Notes under the pieces: generated by a model
Told to the model about the DNA's origin: nothing
The model's input: only the letters and a program-made list of their open reading frames with translations
The model's database searches: none
Origin: Chloroflexota bacterium
Lineage (GTDB): Bacteria > Chloroflexota > Dormibacteria > Aeolococcales > Aeolococcaceae
Assembly: GCA_005880985.1 (NCBI GenBank)
Contig: VBIQ01000007.1
Location: 186,001 to 250,000 of the forward strand
DNA length: 64,000 nucleotides
Direction of reading: 5' to 3'
Made by a program: the position numbers and the translations under genes
In this document: positions 1-40,149 of the stretch, piece after piece
Numbering within the stretch: position 1 is the first letter of the stretch
Layout of the letters: each line of letters begins with the position of its first letter

Positions 1-2
1 TC

Positions 3-1541
3 ATCACCTCCTACACGCTGACCGTCGCGGTGTCCGTCGCCAGCAGCGTCGACGCGATCGTCAGTGCCGCTCCCTCGACGGCCGGGCTGCGAGTGCAGCT
101 CTGCGCCGCCTTTGTTCTCCTGCTTCTGATGGGCAACCTGCGGGGCATTCGCGAATCAGGCTCGATCTTTGCGGCCCCCACCTACCTGTTCATCCTGGGA
201 ATGTTCCTGATGGTCGGTGTCATCTTCGTCAAGCTCGCCACCGGCGACCTGCACCGCTCGAGCCCCCGCATCGGCCAGGCGACCGAGAGCCTGACGCTCG
301 TTCTCATCCTGCGCGCGTTCGCCTCGGGAGCCACCGCCCTGACCGGGGTGGAGGCGATCAGCGATGGCGTGCCCGCCTTTCGGCCGCCCGAGTGGCTCAA
401 TGCCCGCCGGACGCTCACCGCGATGGGGCTCATCCTCGGGGGGATGTTCCTGACCATCACCGTGGCCACCTACCTGCTCGGCATCACTCCGCAGAATCCG
501 GCCAGCCACGGGTATCAGACCGTCATCTCTCAGCTCGCCCACGCAGCCTTCAGCGACAGCTTCGGATACATCTACGTCGCGATCACCACCACGGCAATTC
601 TCGTCCTGGCGGGCAACACGGCCTTTTCCGACTTCCCCCGCCTCCTCTTCTTCATGGCTCGCGATGACTACGCCCCCCATCTGTTCCGCCGGGTCGGCGA
701 TCGGCTCGCCTACAGCAACGGGATCATCGCCCTGGCCGTGCTGGCGACCCTGTTGATCCTGGTGTTCCGCGGCGAGGTGTCACGGCTCATCCCCCTCTAC
801 GCCATCGGCGTCTTCCTCGCCTTCACCATGTCCCAAGCGGGGATGGTGGCCAGGTGGCGACGCCTTCGCGAGCCGGGATGGCGGCGTGGGCTCCCCATCA
901 ACGTGGTCGGGGTCCTCGCCACCGGCCTGGTCTTCATCATCACCGGCATCTTCAAGTTCACCCAGGGCGCGTGGATCATCGTGCTCGTGGTCCCCTTGTT
1001 GGTGCTGACCTGTCGCGCCATCCACAGCCATTACAACGAGGTGCGCGGCAACCTCGCCACCGAGATCCCGACCTCGCCCGACAAGGTGAAACCGATCTGC
1101 ATCGTCCCCATCGCCGACCTCGACGGCGTGGCGCTGCAGAGTCTCGCCTTCGCGCGCTCGATCTCCGACAACGTGATCGCGGTCCACGTCTCCGAAGACG
1201 AGCAGGACATCGCCCGCATGCGCGCCAAATGGGAGGCATGGGGCAATCACGTGCCGCTGGAGATCGTCGAGTCGCAGTATCGCGCCCTGGTCCGCCCGCT
1301 GCTGCGCTATATCGACGCCATCGACAAGCAACACCGTGACGACACCCTGGTGGTGGTGCTGCCGGAGTTGGTGGCGACCAGCTGGTGGCACCAGCTGCTC
1401 CACAACCAGAGCGCGCTGCGGCTCAAGGCGGCGTTGCTGTTCCGTCCCGGCACGGTGGTGGTCAACGTCCCCTACCACCTGCGCCGGGTGCCGCGGGCCC
1501 GCCGCGGGCTGAGGGCGCGGCCGCTGGACGACGACCTCTGA
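3..1541 (+). CDS. kimA: KimA-type K+ uptake permease, first copy (5' end outside window)
   Basis: APC-superfamily permease of the KimA/YdaO type, expected to import K+ with protons across the inner membrane. The reading frame is open from the first bases of the window, so the N-terminal part, including the LSSDxLSSVAYG segment, is missing; 512 residues are visible. Visible family marks are the TGVEAIS segment, the GDRLAYSNGII loop, several hydrophobic helices, and a cytosolic USP-like C-terminal domain that begins near CIVPIADLDG and ends WWHQLLHNQ...PYHLRR. It is closely similar along its whole visible length to the full copy at 35849-38011. It is followed after 56 bases by a flippase-like gene on the same strand. 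Amino-acid transport, the default label for the superfamily, is less likely given the KimA-specific C-terminal domain. Confidence 0.85.
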   Translation: MTSYTLTVAVSVASSVDAIVSAAPSTAGLRVQLCAAFVLLLLMGNLRGIRESGSIFAAPTYLFILGMFLMVGVIFVKLATGDLHRSSPRIGQATESLTLVLILRAFASGATALTGVEAISDGVPAFRPPEWLNARRTLTAMGLILGGMFLTITVATYLLGITPQNPASHGYQTVISQLAHAAFSDSFGYIYVAITTTAILVLAGNTAFSDFPRLLFFMARDDYAPHLFRRVGDRLAYSNGIIALAVLATLLILVFRGEVSRLIPLYAIGVFLAFTMSQAGMVARWRRLREPGWRRGLPINVVGVLATGLVFIITGIFKFTQGAWIIVLVVPLLVLTCRAIHSHYNEVRGNLATEIPTSPDKVKPICIVPIADLDGVALQSLAFARSISDNVIAVHVSEDEQDIARMRAKWEAWGNHVPLEIVESQYRALVRPLLRYIDAIDKQHRDDTLVVVLPELVATSWWHQLLHNQSALRLKAALLFRPGTVVVNVPYHLRRVPRARRGLRARPLDDDL

Positions 1542-8358: not shown

Positions 8359-8829
8359 CTAGGCGGGCGGCGCCGGCCGCTCCGCCACGGCCTTCAGCCT
8401 CTCCAGGCTGCGGCGCAGGTTCTCCGGCATCCATTCCTCGTGCCGCCGGAAGACCAGGTCGACGATCGCGCGCACCGGCTGGCGGAGCTCGTTGACCGTC
8501 TCGTACGACTCGGTGACCTCGGTACCACCGTCGACCGGCTCGAAGCGGTACCGCCAGCGGGTATGCGGCCTACCCATGACGATCGTCGAGAAGACCAGCT
8601 CCCGGCCGGGCTCGCACGCCTCCACCTCGACCGTGGTCGACCACCGCAGCCGGCCGAATCGGTTCTGCCCCTTGAACCGCGCCCCGGGGCGTGCCTCGGT
8701 GGCGCCGCCGGTCCAGCTGGTACGCACCGTCTCCGGGCTCCATTCGGGGATCCGCGTGACGTCGGCGACCATCGCGTGCAGCCGCTCCGGCGGCACGTCG
8801 ACGCGGATCGTGGCCGCGGCCTGCGCCAC
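8359..8829 (-). CDS. SRPBCC-fold protein (polyketide cyclase/dehydrase-like)
   Basis: START/Bet v1-like ligand-binding domain of 156 residues, seen from the early motif for the first strand and helix (AATIRVDVPPERLHAMVADV), then RIPEWSPE, and the alternating strands GARFKGQN, WSTTVEV and RWRYRFEPVDGGTEVTESYE. The start is set at GTG 8829 because the fold begins directly after it, and because this GTG overlaps the stop of a small upstream ORF by one base (TAGTG). The open frame to 8991 reads that small ORF out of frame. The ligand is unknown. Confidence 0.75.
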   Translation of the reverse strand: MAQAAATIRVDVPPERLHAMVADVTRIPEWSPETVRTSWTGGATEARPGARFKGQNRFGRLRWSTTVEVEACEPGRELVFSTIVMGRPHTRWRYRFEPVDGGTEVTESYETVNELRQPVRAIVDLVFRRHEEWMPENLRRSLERLKAVAERPAPPA

Positions 8830-32561: not shown

Positions 32562-32639
32562 TGGGGTGGCCAGAGGGATTTGAACCCTCGACCTCCAGGG
32601 CCACAACCTGGCACTCTAACCAGCTGAGCTATGGCCACC
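32562..32639 (-). tRNA. tRNA-His (anticodon GTG), CCA encoded
   Basis: The cloverleaf is complete. The acceptor stem pairs GTGGCCA with TGGCCAC, the anticodon stem is CCAGG/CCTGG around the loop TTGTGGC (anticodon GTG), and the T-arm is GAGGG-TTCAAAT-CCCTC. An extra G at position -1 opposite C73 is present, as expected for tRNA-His. The 3' CCA is encoded (32564-32562). It converges on the acyl-CoA dehydrogenase gene. Confidence 0.95.
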
Positions 32640-32728: not shown

Positions 32729-32802
32729 GCCCCCTTAGCTCAGCGGGATAGAGCAGCCGCCTTCTAAGCGGCCGGTCGCAGGTTCGAGTCCTGCAGGGGG
32801 CG
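32729..32802 (+). tRNA. tRNA-Arg (anticodon TCT)
   Basis: 74-base cloverleaf: acceptor GCCCCCT/AGGGGGC, D-arm GCTC...GAGC, anticodon stem GCCGC/GCGGC with loop CTTCTAA (anticodon TCT, reads AGA/AGG), T-arm GCAGG-TTCGAGT-CCTGC, discriminator G. No encoded CCA, unlike the neighbouring tRNA-His. AGA/AGG are rare in GC-rich genomes. Confidence 0.95.
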
Positions 32803-33671: not shown

Positions 33672-34814
33672 GTGAACGGTCGACTTCGGCGGCTCGGCAG
33701 GCTCGCCCCCCTGGCGGCTGTCGTCGCCGGCCCGGTCGCTCTCACCGGGGTGCTTCTCGCCGCCAATCCTGGCAACCCGCAGAACTACGTGTACCTGTAC
33801 CTCGGGGTCGTCGCCGTCCTTGGTCTCGGCAGTGGCCTGGGCGCCGCGCTGGTGGCGGCCGGGCTCAGCTTTCTGCTCGTCGACTACCTCTTCGTCGCCC
33901 CGGTGCACACGTTCCGGATCGCCGACTCCACCGACCTGGTCAACCTGTGCGTCTTCTTCGGAGCCGCGGGCCTGGTGGGAACCGTCGGGTCGCGGCGACT
34001 GGCGGCGCAGCGGCGCGCCGAGGCGCTGGCCCAGGAGCTGCAGGCCGCGAACATCGAATTGGCGCGGCTCGCGGAGACGGAGCGCCAGGTTCGCGTCCTC
34101 GAGCAGAGCGACCGGCTGCGGCGCGAGGTGCTCGCGGAGGTCTCACATGAGCTTCGCACCCCCCTCGCCAGCATCCTCACCGGAAGCACGAGCATCCTTC
34201 GCCGGACCTCTCTCCCTGACGACCTCCGCGGCGACGTCGACTCCCTCGCCACCGCGGCGCGGCGCCTCAACCGTCTGGTGTCGGACATCCTCGACATCAC
34301 CCGGATCGAGGGCGGCGTGCTGGAGCTGCGTCCCGTCGACGTGGACCTCCGCGACGCGATCGATGCCGCCGTGCTTCGGTTGCGCCGCAAGAGTCCCGAG
34401 CGCGAGGTGATCGTGAGCGTGCCGGCCCAGACTCCGGAGGTGCTGGCTGACTGGGATCGCCTGGGACAGGTGCTCGACAACCTGCTCGACAACGCCGATC
34501 GGGTGGCGCCACCAGAGAGCCCCGTCCTGGTCGAGGCTCGTCGCACCGACGGGGGCGACGTTGTGGTTGCGGTCAGCGACCACGGGCCTGGGGTGCCCGC
34601 GGAGATCCGCGACCGCGTCTTCGATCGCTTCGTTACCGGCGGTGCGGGACGCGACGAGCCGGCACGCGGCATCGGCCTGGGACTGCCCATCGTCCGCGGT
34701 CTGGTTGCCGCCCAGGGAGGCCGGGTCTGGCTCGAGGATCCCGCCGACGGAGCCGGCGCCCGCTTCGTGTTCAGCCTGCCCACTGCGGCTGCCGGCGGCG
34801 AGGCAAGCGGGTGA
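33672..34814 (+). CDS. kdpD: KdpD-like sensor histidine kinase (short form)
   Basis: 380-residue kinase. Residues about 8-115 hold the four-helix DUF4118 module that is the membrane part of KdpD (the FLLVDYLFVAPVHTFRI loop is typical), followed by a coiled coil. The HisKA domain has SHELRTPLASIL with His159 as phosphoacceptor, and the ATPase domain has LDNLLDNADR, DHGPGVP and IGLGLPIVRGL. It lacks the N-terminal KdpD and Usp domains of full KdpD proteins, so the signal input is the membrane module alone. It overlaps the response-regulator gene by four bases (GTGA). The regulated target is probably the KimA permease just downstream. GTG start. Confidence 0.85.
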   Translation: MNGRLRRLGRLAPLAAVVAGPVALTGVLLAANPGNPQNYVYLYLGVVAVLGLGSGLGAALVAAGLSFLLVDYLFVAPVHTFRIADSTDLVNLCVFFGAAGLVGTVGSRRLAAQRRAEALAQELQAANIELARLAETERQVRVLEQSDRLRREVLAEVSHELRTPLASILTGSTSILRRTSLPDDLRGDVDSLATAARRLNRLVSDILDITRIEGGVLELRPVDVDLRDAIDAAVLRLRRKSPEREVIVSVPAQTPEVLADWDRLGQVLDNLLDNADRVAPPESPVLVEARRTDGGDVVVAVSDHGPGVPAEIRDRVFDRFVTGGAGRDEPARGIGLGLPIVRGLVAAQGGRVWLEDPADGAGARFVFSLPTAAAGGEASG

Positions 34815-35521
34815 GCGAGGGCGACCGCATCCTGCTGGTGGAGGACGACCGGAGCCTGCGCGAAGTCATCCTGGGGGCGCTGCACCAGAGCGGATTCCAG
34901 GCCGATGCCGTGCCCGACGGCATCCAGGCTGCCCAGCGCCTCCGCGCCGAGGAGTTCGGCCTGGTTCTTCTCGATCTGGGTCTTCCATTCGTCAACGGAT
35001 GGCAGATCCTGCACACCCTCGAGGGACGCCGGCTGCCCTCGGTGATCGTCATCTCCGCCCGCGGCGAGGAGGGCGACAAGGTGCGCGCCCTCGACATGGG
35101 CGCCGACGATTACCTCACCAAACCCTTCGGCGCTGACGAGCTGCTGGCGCGCGTCCGCGCCGTGCTGCGCCGGGCGCATCCCCCAACCAGTGCGGACCAC
35201 GTGGTGCAGTGCGGCGACGTCGTTGTTGATCTGGGTTCGCGCGCTGTCTCCCGCCAGGGACGCGAGGTTCGGTTGAGCCCCACCGAATGGGCGCTGCTGG
35301 CGGTCCTAGCGGAGCACGCCGGGACCGTGCTCGACCATCGCACCCTGCTGGCTCGAGTGTGGGGGCCGGAGTACGTCGGTGATCGGAACTACCTGCGCAC
35401 CTTCGTCCAACGACTCCGGCGCGCCCTGGAAGCCGACCCCGCAAACCCTGAGGTGATCGTCACGGTGGGACGTCAGGGCTACCGCTTCGGTCCCATGCCC
35501 CACCATCCGCAGCACCGCTGA
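34811..35521 (+). CDS. kdpE: KdpE/OmpR-family response regulator
   Basis: 236-residue regulator. The receiver domain has the acidic pair EDD near the start, the phosphoacceptor Asp55 in LLDLGLPF and the conserved Lys in DDYLTKPF. The C-terminal OmpR/PhoB winged helix contains LSPTEWALLAVLAEHAGTVLDHRTLL and ends in the wing YLRTFVQRLRRAL...GQGYRF-type sequence. The start is the GTG that overlaps the kinase stop. Partner of the kinase upstream. KdpE-type is based on similarity of the pair and on the K+ permease next door. Confidence 0.88.
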   Translation: MSEGDRILLVEDDRSLREVILGALHQSGFQADAVPDGIQAAQRLRAEEFGLVLLDLGLPFVNGWQILHTLEGRRLPSVIVISARGEEGDKVRALDMGADDYLTKPFGADELLARVRAVLRRAHPPTSADHVVQCGDVVVDLGSRAVSRQGREVRLSPTEWALLAVLAEHAGTVLDHRTLLARVWGPEYVGDRNYLRTFVQRLRRALEADPANPEVIVTVGRQGYRFGPMPHHPQHR

Positions 35522-35568
35522 GGCGTCGTTGATCGATCGTTGACGGTTGGCGAAGCACGCTGGTAGCG

Positions 35569-35856
35569 ATGGCAAGCCGACCGAGAGTGCACGCGCCGAT
35601 CGGACAGGTGGTCACCACCCCTGATGGCCGCCGCCTCGGTCGGGTGATCGCGATCATCCACCACGGAGCGGGGGCCGACGTTCTCGTCGAAGACAGGCGC
35701 TGGCTCCGACACCGGTCGCTTCGCATCTCTGGCGATCAGCTGAGCCGCGGCCCCGAGCACACCTTGGTGTGCCACGCCGCCCCGATCGCTGGCGGCGGGG
35801 ATGCGGGCAGCCTCCGCGAGTCAACCGCCGCCCGGAGGGCGCAGCAGGGTGGCTGA
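35569..35856 (+). CDS. Small PRC-barrel-like protein
   Basis: 95-residue protein. Residues 10-60 resemble a PRC-barrel strand set: IGQVVTTPDGRRLGRVIAII, ADVLVEDRRWLRHRSLRISGDQL. The remainder is disordered. It lies between the response regulator and the KimA gene and its last eight bases overlap the KimA start. This suggests cotranslation, so it may be an accessory of the permease. It is not certain that the ATG is used: TTGACG at 35540 with TAGCGA 18 bases on would put the -10 box across this ATG. Confidence 0.5.
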   Translation: MASRPRVHAPIGQVVTTPDGRRLGRVIAIIHHGAGADVLVEDRRWLRHRSLRISGDQLSRGPEHTLVCHAAPIAGGGDAGSLRESTAARRAQQGG

Positions 35857-38011
35857 GGAGGCAGCCGACCACGGCCAGGCCACCGTGAGCCTGAGCGAGG
35901 AGGAGCGGCGGGCGCTGCTGCAGGCGGGACGTGCGTGGGCAGCCCCCTCGCGGAGCGCAGCTCACACGCCGTGGCGTGTCGACGAGGATCTCGACCTCCA
36001 GGAGCGGCGCGGGGCGCTGCCCGGCGACAAGTACGTCAGGGTGGGACGCCTTCGCCGAGAAGGCCTGGAGAAGGTGTCGCCGGGCGTGTTGCAGGCGACC
36101 AAGCGCGCCAGCGAACCGAGCACCGGGTTGGGTCGCGCCGCCACGCTGTTGCGCCGCGTGGTGCTGGGCAGGCCGCTGGCTTCCACCCAGCTGGCTCACG
36201 AGCGGCTGTCCAAGCCCAAGGCGCTGGCCATCCTCTCCTCCGACCCGCTCTCGTCGGTGGCGTACGGACCGGAGGCGATCCTGATCGTCCTGGTCGGCGC
36301 CGGCAGCGTCGCCTACAGCGCGCTGATCCCCATCACCCTGGTCATCGTCAGCCTCCTGGCGGCGCTCGTGCTCAGCTACCGGCAGCTGATCAAGGCCTAT
36401 CCCAACGCCGGCGGCTCCTACATCGTCGCCAAGGAGAACCTCGGCCCCGCCTATGGCCTGATCGCTGGAGCATCGCTGGTGACCGACTACATCCTCACCG
36501 TCTCGGTCTCGGTGGCGAGCGGCGTGGCGGCCATCGTCAGCGCCTATCCCCAGATGGCAGGCTACACGGTTCAGGCGTGCGTCGCCATCATCGTCATCAT
36601 CACCGTCGCCAACCTGCGCGGCATCCGCGAGTCGGCGAGCCTGTTTGCGCTGCCGACATACGTCTTCGTCGGCAGCATGTTCGTGATGATCGTCACCATC
36701 TTCGTCAAGCTCGCCAGCGGCTCCCCGCACGCCGCCTCGCCACCGCCGGTCCACGTGACCGAGAGCCTGGGCGTCCTGCTCGTGCTCAAGGCGTTCTCAT
36801 CCGGCTGTGCCTCGCTCACCGGCGTCGAGGCGATGAGCAACAGCGTGAGCGCCTTCAAGCCGGTGGAGTGGCGCAACGCGCGCACCACGTTGACCACCAT
36901 GGCCTTCCTGGACGGGGGGATGTTGCTGGGTGTCTCCATCACCGCGCACCTGCTCAACCTGGGCATCAAGGACAACGAGACGCTGCTTTCGCAGCTGGCC
37001 ACGTATGCCTTCGGCCGCGGTGGCGCCTATCAGGTTGTGCAGTACTCGACCTTCCTCATCCTGGTGCTGGCGGCGAACACCTCGTTCACCGGTTTCCCCC
37101 GTCTCTTCTACTTCATGGCGCGCGATGGATACGCCCCGCGCCTGTTCACCCGCCTCGGCGACCGGCTCGCCTACAGCAACGGGATCATCATCCTCGGCGT
37201 CCTCGCCTCGGTGCTGGTCGCGGTCTTCCACGGCGAGACCAACTCCCTGCTCCCTCTCTACACCATCGGCGTCTTCGTCGCCTTCACCATGGCGCAGGCC
37301 GGAATGGTGGTCCGATGGCGCCGCCTGCGCGGGCCCGGCTGGCGCCATGGGCTGGTCATCAACGCCGTGGGCATGGTGATGACGGGAGTCGTCTTCGTCA
37401 TCACCGCCGAGGAGAAGTTCACGGCCGGAGCCTGGATCGTCCTGGTCGTCATCCCCATCCTGGTGCTCGTCTTCCGTGCCATCCACGAGCACTATGGCGA
37501 ACTCGACGGCCTGACGGCGACCGAGACGCCGACCTCTCCGGCCGGCATCAACGCGGTCTGCATCGTCCCCATCGCCGACCTCAACGCCGTCGCCCTGCAG
37601 AGCCTCGCCTTCGCCCGCACCATGAGTGAGAACGTCGTCGCCGTGCACGTGGTCTACGAGGGCGAGGACAACGAGGAGAGGATCGCCCGCCTGAGGGCGA
37701 AGTGGGAGGCATGGGGCAACCACGTTCCCCTGGAGATCATCGAATCACCCTACCGCTCACTGGTGCAGCCGCTGCTGCGATTCATCAACGTCGTCGACCG
37801 GCAGACCGATGACGCGACCCTGGTGGTGGTCCTTCCCGAGATGGTGGCCACCCGGTGGTGGCACCAGCTGTTGCACAACCAGACCGCGCTGCGGCTGAAG
37901 GCGGCCTTGCTCTTCCGTCCTGGCACCGTGGTGGTCAACGTCCCCTACCACCTGCGCCGGACCCGCCGTCTGATGCGGCTGCGCCGTGGCATCGAGGCCG
38001 ACGAGCTCTGA
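35849..38011 (+). CDS. kimA: KimA-type K+ uptake permease, second copy, with N-terminal extension
   Basis: 720-residue APC-type permease closely resembling KimA (YdaO), a K+/H+ symporter inhibited by c-di-AMP in Bacillus. Family marks are KALAILSSDPLSSVAYGPE (K124 on; the Asp and Tyr match the KimA ion-site segment), AYPNAGGSYIVAKENLGPAYGLIAG, DYILTVSVS, SSGCASLTGVEAMSN and GDRLAYSNGII. The cytosolic USP-like C-terminal domain begins at CIVPIADLNA. About 123 residues precede the first family motif, versus roughly 30 in Bacillus KimA, giving a charged cytosolic extension. GTG 35849 has GGAGG about 10 bases upstream and overlaps the PRC-barrel ORF by eight bases. It follows kdpD/kdpE-like genes. 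Confidence 0.88.
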   Translation: MAEEAADHGQATVSLSEEERRALLQAGRAWAAPSRSAAHTPWRVDEDLDLQERRGALPGDKYVRVGRLRREGLEKVSPGVLQATKRASEPSTGLGRAATLLRRVVLGRPLASTQLAHERLSKPKALAILSSDPLSSVAYGPEAILIVLVGAGSVAYSALIPITLVIVSLLAALVLSYRQLIKAYPNAGGSYIVAKENLGPAYGLIAGASLVTDYILTVSVSVASGVAAIVSAYPQMAGYTVQACVAIIVIITVANLRGIRESASLFALPTYVFVGSMFVMIVTIFVKLASGSPHAASPPPVHVTESLGVLLVLKAFSSGCASLTGVEAMSNSVSAFKPVEWRNARTTLTTMAFLDGGMLLGVSITAHLLNLGIKDNETLLSQLATYAFGRGGAYQVVQYSTFLILVLAANTSFTGFPRLFYFMARDGYAPRLFTRLGDRLAYSNGIIILGVLASVLVAVFHGETNSLLPLYTIGVFVAFTMAQAGMVVRWRRLRGPGWRHGLVINAVGMVMTGVVFVITAEEKFTAGAWIVLVVIPILVLVFRAIHEHYGELDGLTATETPTSPAGINAVCIVPIADLNAVALQSLAFARTMSENVVAVHVVYEGEDNEERIARLRAKWEAWGNHVPLEIIESPYRSLVQPLLRFINVVDRQTDDATLVVVLPEMVATRWWHQLLHNQTALRLKAALLFRPGTVVVNVPYHLRRTRRLMRLRRGIEADEL

Positions 38012-38034: not shown

Positions 38035-40149
38035 TTACTCGACCTGACCGAAGGCCTTGATCTCCTCCAGCTCCTGCGGCGACAGCTCGCGCGGCACATC
38101 ACCGCGGGCCGCCTTCTCGCTCTGGACCTGGTGGCGGATGCTGTCGACGATCTCAGGGTTGGCGAGAGTGGTCACGTCGCCGACGTCGGCGAAGTTGGAG
38201 ATCGATGCGATCACCCGTCGCATGATCTTCCCCGAGCGGGTCTTGGGCATGTCGGGGACGATCCACACGTTCTTCGGTCTCGCGATCTTGCCGATCTCCT
38301 TCTCGATCGCGTTGATCACCTTCTCCTCGATGTCCGTGCTCTGCTTGAGGCCGGGCTTGAGCGCGACGTACATCTCCACGACGCGACCACGCAGCTCATC
38401 GATCACCGGGACCGCAGCGGCCTCGGCGATCTCATCGACGGTGAGGCACGCGGACTCGAGCTCCTTGGTCCCCAGTCGGTGGCCGGCGACGTTGATCACA
38501 TCGTCGACCCGGCCGAGGATCCGGAAGTAGCCGTCGGCCGCCTGGACCGCGCCGTCGCCGGCGAGATAGGGCCAGTCCCGCCAGTCCTTGCTCTGCGGAT
38601 CGCGACAGTACTTCGCGTAGTAGGTGTCCACGAACCGCTCGGGTTGACCCCAGATCGTCTGGAAGATGCCAGGCCAGGGGTTGCGGATGCAGATGTTGCC
38701 GGCACGGCCGCTGCCCGCCTCCACGACATTGCGTTCTTCGTCGTAGATCACGGGATAGATCCCGAGGACACCCGGGCCACAACTGCCGGGCTTCATCGGC
38801 TGGAGCGCAGGCAGGGTGCTGCCGAGGAAGCCGCCGTTCTCGGTCTGCCACCAGGTGTCGACGATGACCGCCTCGCCCTTGCCCACCACTTGGTGATACC
38901 AGCGCCAGACCTCGGGTTCGATGGGCTCACCGACCGTGGTCATGTGCTTGAAGTGGTAGTCGTACTTCTTGGGCTCGTCGGGACCGAACTTTCGCAGCAT
39001 GCGGATGGTGGTGGGTGCGGTGTGAAAGATGTTCACCCCGAGCCGCTCCGCGATCCTCCACGGGCGTCCGGCATCCGGGTACAGGGGCACCCCTTCGTAC
39101 ATCACGCTGGTCGTCCCCAGCGACAGCGGGCCGTACACGATGTACGAATGGCCGGTGATCCAACCGATGTCGGCAAAGCACCAGTAGGTGTCCTCGGGAC
39201 GGATGTCCTGGTAGTACCTGGAGGTACCGGTGACGTAGGCCAGGTAGCCGCCGGTGCTGTGCTGGCAGCCCTTGGGGCGTCCGGTGGTGCCACTGGTGTA
39301 CATGAGGAAGAGCGGAGCCTCAGCCGGCATGGGCAGGGGATCCACCAGCCGACCGGCATGGTCCGGCAGAAGCTCGTCGACGAAGAAGTCGCGGCCTTCG
39401 AGCATGGGGCTCTTGGATGCGTACTGGCCGGGATGACGTCGCCAGACCAGCACCTTCTCGACTTCGACGCCCTGCTCGCGGGCGACCGCCACCGCCTCGT
39501 CGGCCTTGGCCTTGTGGTCGATGAGCTCGCCGTTTCGGTAGTACCCGTCGATGGTGACCAGGATGCGGCTCTGCGAATCGGCGATCCGGCCGCCGCAGGC
39601 GGTGCCACTGAATCCGCCGAACACCTCGCTGTGGATCACGCCGAGCCGGGCGCAGGCCAGCATCGAGACCGGCAGCTCCGGGACCATCGGCAGATGGAAG
39701 GTCACCCGGTCGCCCTGTCGCACCCCGCCGAAGAGCTGGAGGAGGACGGCGAACTCGTTGACCCGCTTGTACAGCTCCTGGTAGGTGATCGCCTGGGTCG
39801 CCTCGACTTCCGGCTCGGGTACCCAGATCAAGGCAGCCTTGTTGCGACTCGACGCCAGGTGCCGGTCGATGCAGTTGTACGACGCGTTCAGCCGGCCGCC
39901 GGCGAACCACTTCCAGAAGGGTGGATTGCTGGTGTCAAGGGTGGTATGCCAATAGCTGTCCCAGCTGAGCAGGTCCGCATACTCCTTGAAGCACTCCGGG
40001 AAGCGCTCCTCGCGGAATCGCTCGAAGATGCTCGCATCACTCGCGTTCGCCTGGCCGATGAACTTCGCGGGCGGGAAGTAGTACTCCTCCTCGCGCCAGT
40101 GCACAGCGATCTGTGCCTCGGAGGGCTGGGTCTCCTCTCCGATTGCCAT
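38035..40149 (-). CDS. acs: Acetyl-CoA synthetase (AMP-forming)
   Basis: 704-residue enzyme that makes acetyl-CoA from acetate, ATP and CoA. Visible motifs are the early acyl-CoA-synthetase N-terminal PPFWKWFAGGRLNASYNC, the ATP loop YTSGTTGRPKG, the substrate-pocket segment WWQTENGG, GRVDDVINVAGHRLG, and the C-terminal PKTRSGKIMRR with the Lys that is usually acetylated to control activity. GGAGG lies 8 bases before the ATG at 40149. The closest alternative is propionyl-CoA synthetase; the length and motifs favour Acs. It converges on the KimA gene with 23 bases between. Confidence 0.93.
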   Translation of the reverse strand: MAIGEETQPSEAQIAVHWREEEYYFPPAKFIGQANASDASIFERFREERFPECFKEYADLLSWDSYWHTTLDTSNPPFWKWFAGGRLNASYNCIDRHLASSRNKAALIWVPEPEVEATQAITYQELYKRVNEFAVLLQLFGGVRQGDRVTFHLPMVPELPVSMLACARLGVIHSEVFGGFSGTACGGRIADSQSRILVTIDGYYRNGELIDHKAKADEAVAVAREQGVEVEKVLVWRRHPGQYASKSPMLEGRDFFVDELLPDHAGRLVDPLPMPAEAPLFLMYTSGTTGRPKGCQHSTGGYLAYVTGTSRYYQDIRPEDTYWCFADIGWITGHSYIVYGPLSLGTTSVMYEGVPLYPDAGRPWRIAERLGVNIFHTAPTTIRMLRKFGPDEPKKYDYHFKHMTTVGEPIEPEVWRWYHQVVGKGEAVIVDTWWQTENGGFLGSTLPALQPMKPGSCGPGVLGIYPVIYDEERNVVEAGSGRAGNICIRNPWPGIFQTIWGQPERFVDTYYAKYCRDPQSKDWRDWPYLAGDGAVQAADGYFRILGRVDDVINVAGHRLGTKELESACLTVDEIAEAAAVPVIDELRGRVVEMYVALKPGLKQSTDIEEKVINAIEKEIGKIARPKNVWIVPDMPKTRSGKIMRRVIASISNFADVGDVTTLANPEIVDSIRHQVQSEKAARGDVPRELSPQELEEIKAFGQVE

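Follow-up and report, generated by a model that had tools for sequence, protein, structure and literature searches.

KdpDE is a textbook K+ sensor, and the division of sensing among its parts is still being worked out. In a Chloroflexota bacterium, a KdpDE-like two-component system is encoded directly upstream of the K+/H+ symporter KimA, which raises the question of whether such a pair can control an importer other than the KdpFABC pump. The locus lies in a 64,000-nucleotide stretch of contig VBIQ01000007.1 (the window, to which all coordinates without another label refer). In Bacillus subtilis, KimA is governed by a c-di-AMP (ydaO) riboswitch and by c-di-AMP binding (PMC10284832). The analysis described here makes it likely that the window encodes a KdpDE-type system that has been reduced to its kinase half and whose output has moved from the KdpFABC pump to KimA. 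The features of the locus are as follows:

33672-34814, + strand: histidine kinase of 380 amino acids (DUF4118 membrane module, HisKA, HATPase_c), assigned by Pfam and a kinase tree.
34811-35521, + strand: KdpE-like response regulator of the OmpR/PhoB type, 236 amino acids, assigned by Pfam, PDB match and residues.
35515-35521: weaker third half-site, CCGCTGA.
35526-35543, + strand: predicted KdpE-type operator, a direct repeat of TCGTTGA spaced by TCGA (period 11), without another perfect copy in the genome, kept in relatives and also preceding kdpA in kdp operons of the class.
35556-35561, + strand: candidate -10 element CACGCT of a putative leaderless promoter, proposed from the xAxxxT pattern in aligned promoters.
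35569-35856, + strand: putative PRC-barrel small protein of 95 amino acids (conserved family, Pfam matches of orthologues, fold match).
35849-38011, + strand: K+/H+ symporter KimA, 720 amino acids from GTG 35849 (homology to B. subtilis KimA; Shine-Dalgarno sequence and overlap).
38035-40149, opposite direction: acetyl-CoA synthetase-like gene, 3' of kimA.

The layout given in the earlier note was recovered: the regulator gene overlaps the kinase gene by 4 bases, and the small PRC-barrel-like open reading frame joins the regulator to an overlapping kimA. The start of kimA in the listed open reading frame, ATG 35801, is probably not the true one; GTG 35849 is preferred because GGAGGG at 35834-35839 lies nine bases before it and because kimA read from this codon overlaps the stop of the PRC gene by 8 bp. 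Upstream of the locus is a divergent pair of tRNA genes (32565-32638, - strand; 32729-32802, + strand), about 90 bp apart.

The kinase had been described as a KdpD-type DUF4118 module that lacks the KdpD-N and Usp domains, and Pfam agrees: DUF4118 was matched with an E-value of 5e-19, HisKA and HATPase_c are also present, and both the N-terminal KdpD (serine kinase) domain and the Usp domain of full-length KdpD are absent from the protein encoded at 33672-34814. Rather than a reduced KdpD, it is better called the kinase-bearing half of a split KdpD, because Kdp-positive relatives encode the same type of short kinase beside kdpA together with a distinct KdpD-N protein, and the window's kinase groups with these. 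The partner consists of a receiver domain and a Trans_reg_C domain (Pfam). KdpE is the top-scoring model for it among 91 matching NCBIfam models (188 bits, below the equivalog cut-off of 325 bits), and in the PDB it matches KdpE (4kfc) and 6lgq_D best. The phospho-acceptor aspartate and the residues with which KdpE contacts DNA (R193, R200 and T215) are kept, the latter also across the regulators of the linked loci compared; the protein is thus an OmpR/PhoB-type regulator nearest to KdpE, although the NCBIfam cut-off is not reached.

Conservation of the gene order was followed in 110 genomes of the class, 52 of which contain a kimA match at E<=1e-60. In 11 genomes of the class, kimA has a DUF4118 kinase gene no more than about 4 kb away; the rough chance of this is about 0.7% per genome, and the adjacency exceeds chance. 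The proposed order of kinase, regulator, PRC protein and KimA is indeed shared by relatives and is found again in other phyla. Within the class, the order kinase-regulator-(PRC)-kimA is found in the window's own genome (G000) and in G001, G004, G005, G006 and G017, with no PRC gene detected in G005. G007, G008 and G009 have kimA followed by the kinase and a convergent regulator gene, G055 has kinase-regulator-kimA with a longer kinase, and in G049 kimA adjoins a kdp cluster. A wider survey drew on a collection of 84,980 species and covered its 80 best named KimA loci; among these, kinase-regulator-kimA occurs in three other Chloroflexota loci (L183, L193, L233), in an Acidobacteriota locus (L237) and in a Steroidobacteraceae MAG (L243), and an unclassified bacterium (L222) has a divergent arrangement. 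The domains were confirmed for L183, L193, L237 and L243. The linked loci thereby span Chloroflexota, Acidobacteriota and Gammaproteobacteria, and the linkage was found in none of the 26 Bacillota loci among the 80.

Six kimA-linked kinases are of the window's type, and in a kinase tree they make up one clade (support 99/98) among kdp-linked kinases; the kinases of the G007-G009 type and of G055 are placed elsewhere. Three changes between kimA and kdp labels are needed, at least two of which are forced by well-supported branches; kimA-linked kinases branch at three places among the kdp-linked split KdpD kinases. A single co-inherited clade of the KimAs linked to window-type kinases was rejected for the four KimAs tested (AU p 0.0065, an indicative value, since the grouping was chosen after the tree had been viewed), and kimA was therefore exchanged while its link to the kinase persisted or formed anew.

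The absence of kdpFABC, which had been noted for the window, extends to the genome (3.3 Mb in 29 contigs, 93% complete): neither KdpA nor TrkH was found anywhere in it, KdpD-N (PF02702) gave no match above the cut-off, and the kinase is its only DUF4118 protein. A hidden kdp operon or KdpD-N gene elsewhere was rejected after this empty whole-genome search, and a KdpDE system with kdpFABC as its target is not what this genome, being without KdpA, encodes. At 93% completeness, the assembly might in principle lack a kdp operon that the organism has; no KdpA match was found in any genome of the six-kinase clade, including G017, which is 98% complete. In the window's family, kimA and the kinase are linked in 7 of 14 genomes without KdpA versus 2 of 18 with KdpA (Fisher p 0.02, which ignores kinship and incompleteness). 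G007 and G009 carry a kdp operon in addition to their kimA-linked kinase, so that kdp loss is not required.

The gap between the stop of the regulator gene and the start of the PRC gene contains TCGTTGATCGATCGTTGA (35526-35543), which is the only perfect copy of this box in the 3.3 Mb genome; 0.003 perfect boxes are expected from base composition, and one further match exists at one mismatch. Corresponding boxes are TCGTTGACGGTTCGTTGA in G001, TCGTTGATCGTTCGTTGA in G004, GCGTTGACCCATCGTTGA in G006 and the alignable CGATTGACCAATCGTTGA in G017, and G005 has a weaker form. As an independent test, the upstream regions of kdpA were searched (700 bp each): the box is present in 9 of the 14 kdp operons of the class, and 16 sites with up to two mismatches were found at a spacing of N4 (shuffled mean 0.02), while the spacings N0-N3 and N5-N9 gave no site. 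Since it is common to these kdpA promoters, the box is taken to be the KdpE box of the class. A pair of TT[GT]A elements at distance 11 is present in 13 of 14 kimA loci linked to a two-component system, with none at other distances from 6 to 20, and in 0 of 40 unlinked kimA loci. Because some regions in the 14-locus count had been trimmed by eye, the count was repeated on whole gaps of seven loci not used for motif definition, six of which contain the pair; L183 has the gene order and no such pair in its gap. Similar loci with the period-11 pair are found in other Chloroflexota, an Acidobacteriota and a Gammaproteobacterium.

The predicted operator thus has two half-sites with a period of 11 bp and is common to the kdp promoters of relatives. 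The E. coli KdpE site, TTTATA-N5-TTTACA, has the same period (PMC3264566), and the 22-bp site of Mycobacterium smegmatis was reported to be unlike other KdpE sites (PMC5401905); read on the other strand (GGCCTTGATGGTTTCTTTACGG), it contains TTGA and TTTA 11 bp apart. No box was seen upstream of the kinase in the window, and there is therefore no sign of autoregulation. Further boxes were observed outside the window. At L050, a box with one mismatch (about 8589-8606; G026:C42:53588-53605) lies 137 bp before an unlinked KimA match in a Kdp-positive genome, which suggests that this kimA may be controlled in trans. At the G009 locus, about 14 bp separate the kimA box from another box on the other strand (L034 9226-9243, + strand), which suggests divergent control of a neighbouring gene. 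Two DUF4118 proteins apparently without a kinase domain (L177 7198-7545; L159 7537-7881) are encoded next to kdp or regulator genes, each preceded by a box.

The earlier note had proposed K+-dependent control of KimA by the sensor pair. As to the tie between regulator and kimA, this proposal now has more than adjacency behind it, because a KdpE-type box shared with kdp promoters directly precedes PRC-kimA; judged from the sequences compared, control of kimA by the regulator is strongly supported. The adjacency could instead be accidental, with the regulator acting on kdp or on other genes missing from the assembly. The incompleteness of the assembly and the coexistence of a kdp operon and a kimA-linked kinase in G007 and G009 would fit such a case; however, the sole perfect operator of the genome precedes PRC-kimA, the linkage recurs at three places in the kinase tree and in other phyla, and KdpA is missing from the nearly complete G017 as well, which leaves accidental adjacency with hardly any probability.

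In most kimA and kdp promoters, the start codon lies about 24-26 bases past the box with an xAxxxT-like element in between, which suggests that both kinds of promoter may give rise to leaderless transcripts. A standard promoter (TTGACG-N17) with the second half of the box as -35 was rejected, since its transcription start would fall past the start codon of the PRC gene; the better fit is a leaderless start, for which the box lies immediately before the -10 element. The box overlies the expected -35 region, a position that is also open to a repressor, and the regulator might thus block the PRC-kimA promoter, for example until K+ falls. We consider repression very unlikely, since KdpE acts as an activator of kdp both in E. 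coli (PMC3264566) and in M. smegmatis (PMC5401905) and the box stands at a nearly equal distance upstream of the -10 element in kimA and kdp promoters, as for PhoB-type activators.

That K+ is the signal is the other part of the proposal; we infer it purely from family membership, and we likewise infer that the regulator activates rather than represses. Intact catalytic domains, the phospho-acceptor, the operon order, the box shared with kdp and the recurrence in other lineages are seen directly in the sequence. In the proposed mechanism, K+ limitation would activate the kinase, a dimer of the phosphorylated regulator would bind the box with its 11-bp period, and the bound regulator would activate the leaderless PRC-kimA promoter; KimA would then restore K+ and close the feedback through uptake, with c-di-AMP still inhibiting KimA directly, as in Bacillus. 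The KdpD-N/Usp half would have been lost together with the pump on which it acted, which makes sense given that the serine-kinase domain of KdpD-N phosphorylates KdpB (PMC11018627). The pair might also control PRC-kimA in answer to an osmotic shift, turgor, pH or the state of the membrane, in which case KimA would be part of a response to osmolarity or pH. The kinase lacks KdpD-N and Usp, DUF4118 alone may sense something other than K+, and a link to pH is conceivable for a proton symporter. On the other hand, relatives use this type of kinase and this box for kdpFABC, those Kdp operons that have been tested respond to K+ limitation, and the split system of Deinococcus radiodurans reacts to a shortage of K+ but not to osmolarity (PMC5716572); a signal other than K+ is therefore rather improbable.

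The transporter itself is a KimA by homology across the transporter and cytosolic domains (phmmer E 5e-147 over 600 amino acids against B. subtilis KimA, 6s3k). Judged by the residue list of PMC10284832, all four K+ ligands (D36, Y43, T230, Y377) are kept, as are the c-di-AMP contacts R337, P479, V506, H579, N580 and Q581; S582 is replaced by threonine, and V457 and L461 differ. The genome encodes one diadenylate cyclase. Inhibition of KimA by c-di-AMP as a second layer of control is plausible because most pocket residues and the K+ ligands are retained. In Staphylococcus aureus, c-di-AMP acts on KdpD through the Usp domain (PMC4686210); the kinase of the window has no such domain, and c-di-AMP therefore probably does not enter through it. 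A c-di-AMP riboswitch ahead of kimA was rejected, as RF00379 had no match in the 110 class genomes, including the regions upstream of kimA; among ten named KimA loci scanned for RNA families, one, L185 (Symbiobacteriaceae), carries it. An N-terminal extension of about 100 amino acids with a GxRYVRVxR-like motif (35849-36150; also in L033, L243, L233 and L066) is missing from the aligned B. subtilis KimA. Across the start of the window (1-1541; G000:C2:185391-187517) lies another KimA, which shares 60% identity with the first; it has no adjacent two-component genes and no operator, and the two copies probably differ in their regulation.

The 95-amino-acid protein belongs to a conserved family. 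The protein itself has no Pfam match; three of five orthologues match Pfam PRC (best E 2e-4), and the top matches of its predicted fold (pLDDT 73, from 5 sequences only) are RimM/PRC barrels with weak E-values, all of which is consistent with a PRC barrel. More speculatively, the cross-phylum recurrence might reflect a third mode of KimA control, in which KdpDE, left with a Usp-less kinase half, has been redirected repeatedly from the Kdp pump to KimA, transcription by a two-component system is combined with inhibition of the protein by c-di-AMP, and the co-transcribed PRC protein and the KimA extension form an accessory module; this wider reading is possible and tentative.

If the proposed control is true, a two-component system can govern KimA in the absence of the c-di-AMP riboswitch. 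As a natural kinase that lacks the N-terminal half and apparently drives a different importer, the protein would be a minimal test system, and the locus offers a reason why the serine-kinase domain of KdpD, whose substrate is KdpB (PMC11018627), would be dispensable after loss of the pump. The predicted operator is a concrete regulon marker for Kdp-less bacteria. No report of KdpDE-type control of kimA was found in the literature searched, outside of which most subscription journals lie. Split KdpD, KdpE boxes and KimA have each been described on their own; what appears to be new is their combination at kimA. Split KdpD was noted for Chloroflexota and Acidobacteriota in a survey (PMC11018627) that was restricted to species with an annotated Kdp(F)ABC and would thus miss Kdp-less genomes like this one.

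Compared with KdpD/KdpE of E. coli and M. smegmatis, the system shares the DUF4118 module, a HisKA/HATPase kinase, a KdpE-like regulator with its DNA contacts and two half-sites with a period of 11; it differs in that this genome lacks the KdpD-N/Usp half and KdpFABC, and the predicted target is kimA. The split KdpD of D. radiodurans (PMC5716572) likewise has a short DUF4118 kinase separate from KdpD-N, whereas the present genome has neither the KdpD-N partner nor the pump, and its kinase and regulator genes adjoin kimA. With B. subtilis KimA, the transporter shares the protein family, the residues of the K+ site, most c-di-AMP contacts and a diadenylate cyclase in the genome; in contrast to the Bacillus protein, it carries the N-terminal extension, the class has no riboswitch, and its transcription appears to be tied to a two-component system.
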